Origin: Candidatus Omnitrophota bacterium
Lineage (GTDB): Bacteria > Omnitrophota > Gorgyraeia > Gygaellales > Profunditerraquicolaceae
Direction: 5' to 3'
Assembly (NCBI GenBank): GCA_028718225.1
Contig: JAQUMI010000005.1
Span: forward strand, 1-51,432
DNA: 51,432 nt
In this document: one piece after another, positions 10,455 through 41,506 of the stretch
Numbering within the stretch: position 1 is the stretch's first letter
Layout: every line of letters begins with the position of its first letter
Notes under the pieces: model-generated
Databases searched by the model: none
Told to the model about the DNA's origin: nothing
Seen by the model: the letters and a program-made list of their open reading frames with translations, nothing else
Program-made: the position numbers and the translations under genes

Positions 10455-10482
10455 TTGACAATAGACTTAATAGTGGTAAAAT
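10455..10482 (+). promoter_or_regulatory. Putative sigma70-type promoter of hflK leader
   Basis: TTGACA (10455-10460) - 16 nt - TAAAAT (10477-10482). Confidence 0.6.
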
Positions 10483-10517
10483 TATTTAAGTAGTTAAGGT
10501 TTATAGTAAAAAATAGG

Positions 10518-10597
10518 GGTTCAGGAAAATTTCCTGAAGGTTTGGATGGTCGGGCCGCCATCTGCGCAAGTGCAGCTGGTGGTTTTTGTTTTTTTAG
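10518..10597 (+). ncRNA. Candidate structured 5' leader with intrinsic terminator (upstream of hflK); shares GATGGTCGGGCCGCCATCT with the mscS leader
   Basis: Hairpin CAGGAAAATTTCCTG, hairpin GATGG/CCATC, overlapping terminator stem CCGCCA…TGGTGG with inner CTGC…GCAG followed by TTTTTGTTTTTTT. Confidence 0.6.
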
Positions 10598-12585: not shown

Positions 12586-12891
12586 ATGTTTGTGCTAGCT
12601 AATTTCTTAACTGCCTTAGCCCAAATTTTAGATGTAGGATTTTTCATACTCTATTGGCTGATTTTAATCCGCGCCTTGATCAGCTGGGTTAATCCCGATC
12701 CCTATAATTTTATAGTCCAGTTTTTATATAAGACTACTGAACCGATACTCTACCCGATAAGGAGGGTGCTGCCCCCGGGCTTAAAATTTGGCATAGATAT
12801 TTCACCAATTATTGCATTTTTTGCGATTATGTTTCTCAGGTCTTTTTTAATAAGGACATTGTTTGAATTGGCTATAAAATTAAAAGGATAA
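12586..12891 (+). CDS. YggT family membrane protein
   Basis: LIRALISWVNPDPYNFIVQFLYKTTEPILYPIRRVLPP (YggT signature). Confidence 0.88.
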   Translation: MFVLANFLTALAQILDVGFFILYWLILIRALISWVNPDPYNFIVQFLYKTTEPILYPIRRVLPPGLKFGIDISPIIAFFAIMFLRSFLIRTLFELAIKLKG

Positions 12892-14182: not shown

Positions 14183-14210
14183 TTGTATCTGTTATCCGGC
14201 ATGGTATAAT
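14183..14210 (+). promoter_or_regulatory. Putative sigma70-type promoter of mscS leader
   Basis: TTGTAT - 16 nt - TATAAT. Confidence 0.55.
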
Positions 14211-14241
14211 TGATTAAATGCGATAGTGGATAAGCAAGTGG

Positions 14242-14321
14242 GCCGGGAATAGGCGAGTATTTCCGGTGGATTTTTGATGGTCGGGCCGCCATCTCGCATG
14301 CGAACGCGGGGCGGCTTTTTT
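14242..14321 (+). ncRNA. Candidate structured 5' leader with intrinsic terminator (upstream of mscS); shares GATGGTCGGGCCGCCATCT with the hflK leader
   Basis: Hairpin CCGGGAATA…TATTTCCGG, hairpin GATGG/CCATC, overlapping terminator stem GCCGCC…GGCGGC + TTTTTT. Confidence 0.6.
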
Positions 14322-40521: not shown

Positions 40522-40537
40522 CAAGAAGCAGTGAAAA

Positions 40538-40632
40538 AACGGGGAGGTCGTTAAACGGCCTGAGAGTTTTGCTGGAGAGCAGATTACCCGAGAAACCTGA
40601 TCTGGATAATGCCAGCGGAGGGAAAGGACGGA
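40538..40632 (+). ncRNA. TPP riboswitch (THI element)
   Basis: …CTGAGAGTTTTGCTGGAGAGCAGATTACCCGAGAAACCTGATCTGGATAATGCCAGCGGAGGGAA; highly characteristic THI core. Confidence 0.96.
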
Positions 40633-40640
40633 ACATTTTA

Positions 40641-40670: not shown

Positions 40671-40732
40671 GCTGCAGGGGACAATACGTCAATCTGCCAG
40701 ATAGGGTTAAGTGTATGAAAAAGGGAGGGGAT

Positions 40733-41506
40733 ATGCGGTTGGATGAAATCAAGATATCGCGGGCGATAATTGAATCTTACCAGCAAAAATTAATCAAAGC
40801 CTTGGATGTAGAGGTGGCGATCGTCGGCGCCGGGCCTAGCGGTATGGTCTGCGGGTATTACCTGGCTAAGGCCGGCAAAGAAGTGGTTTTATTTGAGAGA
40901 AAATTATCGGTGGGAGGCGGCATGTGGGGAGGCGGAATTATGTTTAATGAAATAGTGGTCCAGGAAGAAGCTAAGAAGATCTTTGAGGAATTCGGGGTCA
41001 GAACAAGGAGGTACGCGGAGGGTTATTATCTGGCTGATTCCATAGATAGCGTTTCAACGATATGCTCTAAAGCCGTACATGCGGGCTTGAGGATTTTTAA
41101 CCTGATCAGCGCTGAAGATGTAATGGTCCGGTCCAAGCGTGTGTGTGGTTTGGTCCTAAACTGGACTGCCGTGGAGATGGCTAATCTGCATGTTGATCCC
41201 CTAACCATGCGGGCCAAGTTCGTAGTGGATGCGACCGGCCATCCGGCGGAAGTCGCCCGTATTGTTGAGCGTAAGTCCGGTATAAAACTTAATACCAAAA
41301 CCGGCCGGACTATCGGAGAACAATCTATGCACGCGCAGGAAGGGGAGCAAATTATTGTCAAGAATTCTAAGGAGATATGCCCCGGGCTTTATGCCTGCGG
41401 CATGTGCGCTAACGCTGTATTCGGAGGAGCGCGTATGGGGCCGATTTTCGGCGGAATGCTGCTGGCCGGAAAAAAGGTAGCCAGAGACTTGCTTAAAAAA
41501 CTATAA
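40733..41506 (+). CDS. thi4: Thi4-family (sulfide-dependent) thiazole synthase
   Basis: [101 protein letters not shown] 40733 with GGGAGGGG RBS. Confidence 0.94.

Follow-up and report, generated by a model that had tools for sequence, protein, structure and literature searches.

The window analysed here, a stretch of 51,432 nucleotides from a Candidatus Omnitrophota contig, contains two neighbouring transcription units on the forward strand, the operon hflK-hflC-yggT and the gene mscS, each preceded by a structured leader (Table 1). The presumed mscS promoter is accompanied by no -35 element above the threshold of the promoter scan. The third gene of the operon has a counterpart in E. coli YggT, for which a role in osmotic regulation is given (Ito et al. 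2009, as cited in PMC6828654).

Table 1. Features of the hflK and mscS loci, in window coordinates
Feature	Position	Strand	Evidence
Sigma-70-like promoter TTGACA-N16-TAAAAT, TG before -10	10455..10482	+	11/12 matches; shuffles mean 0.4 sites
RF03057 (nhaA-I; Li+-I/Na+-II) aptamer, hflK leader	10517..10563	+	cmscan 46.7 bits, cutoff 37; fold
Intrinsic terminator using the P2 3' arm; stem 10554-10583, T-run 10583-10596	10554..10596	+	fold -17.2 kcal/mol, z -3.0
hflK (SPFH/Band_7), 331 aa	10623..11618	+	Pfam PF01145 4.6e-27; ORF
hflC (SPFH/Band_7), 319 aa	11615..12574	+	Pfam PF01145 7.6e-27
yggT, 101 aa, third operon gene	12586..12891	+	Pfam PF02325 2.8e-23
Extended -10 TGGTATAAT, presumed mscS promoter	14202..14210	+	read by eye
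Second RF03057 element, mscS leader	14240..14294	+	cmscan 33.1 bits, below cutoff 37; E 2.4e-5 (181-base search)
Intrinsic terminator using the P2 3' arm, second element; stem 14285-14315, T-run 14316-14321	14285..14321	+	fold -16.6 kcal/mol, z -2.3
mscS mechanosensitive channel, 350 aa	14335..15387	+	Pfam PF00924, PF21082, PF21088

Two leaders with a shared core

The aptamer of the hflK leader is complete, comprising the conserved GGGU element, the P1 hairpin (10520-10538), AGGU with its conserved AGG, and the P2 hairpin (10544-10563) with the loop CGGGCC. When the RNA is cut at 10563 it folds into P1 and P2, and when it is extended through the T-run the terminator replaces P2. These folds bear out the structural elements of a preliminary description of the leader: its upstream hairpin is P1, its GATGG/CCATC hairpin appears in the RNA folded to 10563, and the CCGCCA arm said to double as a terminator arm is placed exactly so once the downstream part is included. 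As a picture of the element that description was incomplete, since the full element also takes in P1 and the conserved GGGU and AGG flanks. It was right to see a switch-like leader with mutually exclusive hairpin and terminator associated with two genes, but a riboswitch of no recognised class it is not: in the Rfam check the hflK leader matched RF03057 with the score given in Table 1, and the proposal of a new class was dropped. The mscS leader, which shows the same switch as the hflK leader, did not figure as such in that description.

The 19-nucleotide motif GATGGTCGGGCCGCCATCT recurs as described, at 10545-10563 and 14276-14294 on the forward strand. A scan of the window returned no further match with up to three mismatches, none of 100 shuffles gave any, and throughout the 1.04-Mb genome the motif is confined to these two sites. 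Within the family, however, the 12-base P2 core GGTCGGGCCGCC is identical in 139 of 144 elements, so that the identity between the two leaders reflects a near-invariant RF03057 core, and the idea that it ties these two genes to each other in particular was rejected.

Membership of RF03057 with an antitermination architecture is near certain for the hflK leader and likely for the mscS leader. In the latter, G replaces U4 and U replaces A27, positions at which U and A are found in 137 of 139 elements, making a changed ion response possible. That this copy has decayed or been re-specified, and is deaf to the ion sensed by the hflK copy, would fit both its sub-cutoff Rfam score and the alteration of two such conserved bases at once; it nevertheless seems unlikely, given that P1, P2, the loop and the terminator are all kept, that G4 and U27 can still pair in the fold, and that canonical elements are common in the mscS leaders of relatives.

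Published relatives and distribution

RNAs of the nhaA-I family were established by experiment as Li+-activated switches (Li+-I), with rare terminator-bearing variants, reported from Deltaproteobacteria only, forming the Na+-responsive Na+-II group, of which the Desulfobulbus propionicus representative was Na+-activated when tested (White et al. 2022, PMC9646797). The same study noted tandem nhaA-I members in environmental sequences near genes for cation transport and osmotic stress, and occasional associations with trehalose-6-phosphate synthase genes, the ion in both cases not being determined there (PMC9646797). With the D. propionicus RNA the window leaders share the RF03057 architecture, a terminator whose formation undoes P2, and a predicted ON logic, and tandem copies occur here as well. 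Na+-II, however, was reported from Deltaproteobacteria only, before genes of unknown function, and its tested RNA has C54 where most members have U; the putative equivalent in the window, the base closing the P2 loop, is U. Likeness to Li+-I extends to the Rfam family, the P2 core GGUCGGGCCGCC and the GGGU and AGG elements, and ends at the targets, which are nhaA there and a set of osmotic-stress genes here. The Na+-I class (DUF1646 motif, RF03071) has a similar P1/P2 layout, a terminator competing with P2, ON logic and named targets, DUF1646, dapB and MgtA (PMC9337991), that overlap with those of relatives of the window elements (DUF1646, dapB, P-type ATPase). It is nonetheless a separate Rfam family, and membership was rejected: neither leader matched RF03071 at E values up to 1, and no match was found in 190 Omnitrophota genomes, nor in 197 from Desulfobacterota searched for the P1-foot comparison described below.

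The class is thus already known, and in terms of the literature, as distinct from its supplementary tables, Omnitrophota are a new host phylum; a literature search found no account of riboswitches in this phylum. RF03057 is present in 100 of 386 Omnitrophota genomes and matches in 38 of 346 from Desulfobacterota. The pattern including the T-run occurs in at least 118 GTDB stretches, from Omnitrophota, Elusimicrobiota, Deltaproteobacteria, Nitrospirae, Verrucomicrobia, Spirochaetes, Margulisbacteria and others, which carries the terminator-type variant beyond Deltaproteobacteria into several other phyla; a search of plasmids with a terminator-type query gave no match. The check for further occurrences and covariation suggested at the outset thus came out positive, with more than 140 elements in Omnitrophota and strong covariation in P1, whose positions are 91-100% paired through exchanges among C-G, U-A, U-G, G-C and A-U (also G-U), and outer P2 pairs changing from G-C to A-U and from A-U to G-C. 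A terminator consuming the P2 3' arm is found in 135 of 142 Omnitrophota elements, compared with 130 of 685 controls in which the insert alone was shuffled, a comparison that addresses terminator design and not common descent. Tandem arrangements of two or three elements, nearly all with their own terminator downstream, were seen at loci L009 and L013 in Omnitrophota and L275, L284, L287, L289 and L292 in Desulfobacterota.

Among 134 downstream genes in Omnitrophota, clustered and named by the Pfam matches of representatives, trehalose-6-phosphate synthases (GT20) form a cluster of 42, followed by MscS (26) and HflK (24), with two-component proteins, P-II, Na/Ca and Na/H exchangers and citrate-transporter-type carriers among the other targets. 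In other phyla the genes downstream include DUF1646, dapB, NhaA, Na/H exchangers and a P-type ATPase. No description of hflK or mscS as targets was found in the literature, supplementary gene tables aside. The two genes adjoin in many relatives, and such neighbours each have their own element in the window and at L075, L086 and L017, and a single one at L079 and L099. A trehalose synthase was not found in the window's own genome, which is estimated to be 83% complete. The synthases under the switch (L078:311-2542 and about 40 similar loci) bear an N-terminal extension of some 270 residues, in which a Cache-like domain (sCache_3_2 match, L007) is flanked by what look like two membrane helices, and are apparently sensor-enzyme fusions. 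In a few genomes (L012, L013) the switch stands before the gene of a P-II nitrogen regulatory protein, which would be an unexpected target if the RNA senses sodium.

Ion choice and proposed mechanism

Bases at the P1 foot and in the P2 loop are conserved in Na+-I RNA and have been proposed as its binding site, and by analogy the identity of the P1 foot pair may bear on ion choice here. This pair is Y-R in all 139 well-parsed Omnitrophota elements (100 C-G, 24 U-A, 15 U-G), as it is in 37 of 38 from Desulfobacterota. The foot is U-A in the hflK copy, which is without the G-C pair of the GGGUG...CAGG arrangement seen in proteobacterial nhaA-type plasmid leaders; the latter, retrieved with a query that held GCAGG and was therefore biased towards G-C members, are in turn devoid of a T-run terminator. 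The Rfam consensus likewise reads GGGUGC...GCAGGU, although the use of a G-C foot as a mark of Li+-I is our own criterion, drawn from this comparison. In sum, proteobacterial Li+-I leaders of the nhaA type combine a G-C foot with no T-run terminator, as opposed to a Y-R foot and a terminator in the window. The P2-loop base points the other way. It is U, the usual Li+-I base, in 140 of 144 elements (GGTCGGG in the window copies), and taken alone it would indicate Li+-I and argue against a Na+-II reading, as does the presence of NhaA-linked members within the terminator subtype. From gene context, the terminator platform and the P1 foot we infer, with moderate confidence, that the ligand is Na+ rather than Li+.

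Two other specificities were weighed. Were the leaders true Li+-I riboswitches, sensing Li+ in defence against lithium toxicity, their Rfam family, their P2 core and a loop U matching that of most Li+-I RNAs would all be accounted for. Such a role is improbable, as the targets are osmotic-stress genes (trehalose-6-phosphate synthase, MscS, HflK) and not nhaA, the terminator platform is tied to the Na+ variant (PMC9646797), and the P1 foot is unlike that of nhaA-type leaders. We regard as similarly improbable a broader specificity for Na+, Li+ and NH4+, or one for NH4+. This possibility stems from the C54U mutant of the D. propionicus Na+-II RNA, whose response broadened to Li+, Na+ and NH4+ (PMC9646797): the probable equivalent of position 54 is the base that closes the P2 loop, a U in each of the window copies, and the loop U on a terminator platform would reproduce the make-up of that mutant. 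While the P-II regulators lend an NH4+-type response some support, they account for only 3 of 134 downstream genes, most targets being salt or osmotic genes, and the parallel with C54U leans on the inferred mapping.

On balance, both leaders are probably terminator-controlled cation switches of the nhaA-I family that turn their genes ON, with Na+ the most likely ligand, similar to Na+-II. The direction of control is the best reading of a layout that matches those of the tested Na+-I and Na+-II switches, in which the ion holds P2 and permits readthrough. Under the proposed mechanism, in the absence of ligand the P2 3' arm would pair with downstream sequence to form the intrinsic terminator, and transcription would stop before hflK-hflC-yggT or mscS. 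Binding of a monovalent cation in a pocket formed by the P1 foot and the P2 loop would hold P2, block the terminator and switch the genes on, such that a rise in cytoplasmic Na+ would induce the osmotic and salt-stress set. A plain terminator or protein-bound attenuator with an incidental resemblance to the aptamer is hardly credible for all the predicted strength of the hflK-leader terminator, for the Rfam score of that leader speaks against coincidence, and the GGGU and AGG elements and the P2 loop, which a terminator alone would not need, are kept over several phyla.

It is possible, though short of likely, that terminator-type RF03057 elements with a flipped P1 foot and a U loop constitute a large Na+-responsive subclass spanning Omnitrophota, Elusimicrobiota, Desulfobacterota and others, and place an osmotic-stress regulon of trehalose synthase, MscS and HflKC under direct ion control. 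If so, specificity would be set by the P1 foot pair and not by the loop base alone, and a mechanosensitive channel would be subject to direct control by an ion. The findings as a whole suggest that in uncultured Omnitrophota cytoplasmic salt acts directly on trehalose synthesis, on such a channel and on the HflKC complex. More than 100 natural sequences are available for working out how RNA discriminates Na+ from Li+.

Two further observations concern neighbouring subjects. At L283, L286 and L287 in Desulfobacterota the P2 core reads AGTCGGGCCGCT, or GGTCGGGCCGCC with CCACC outside it, and the switches precede small proteins of about 137 residues, the one tested (L283) containing pentapeptide repeats. 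Elsewhere in the window, a TPP riboswitch (RF00059, 57.7 bits) at 40530-40640 lies before an open reading frame of 263 codons (40715-41506) whose product resembles, by eye, a Thi4-type thiazole synthase.
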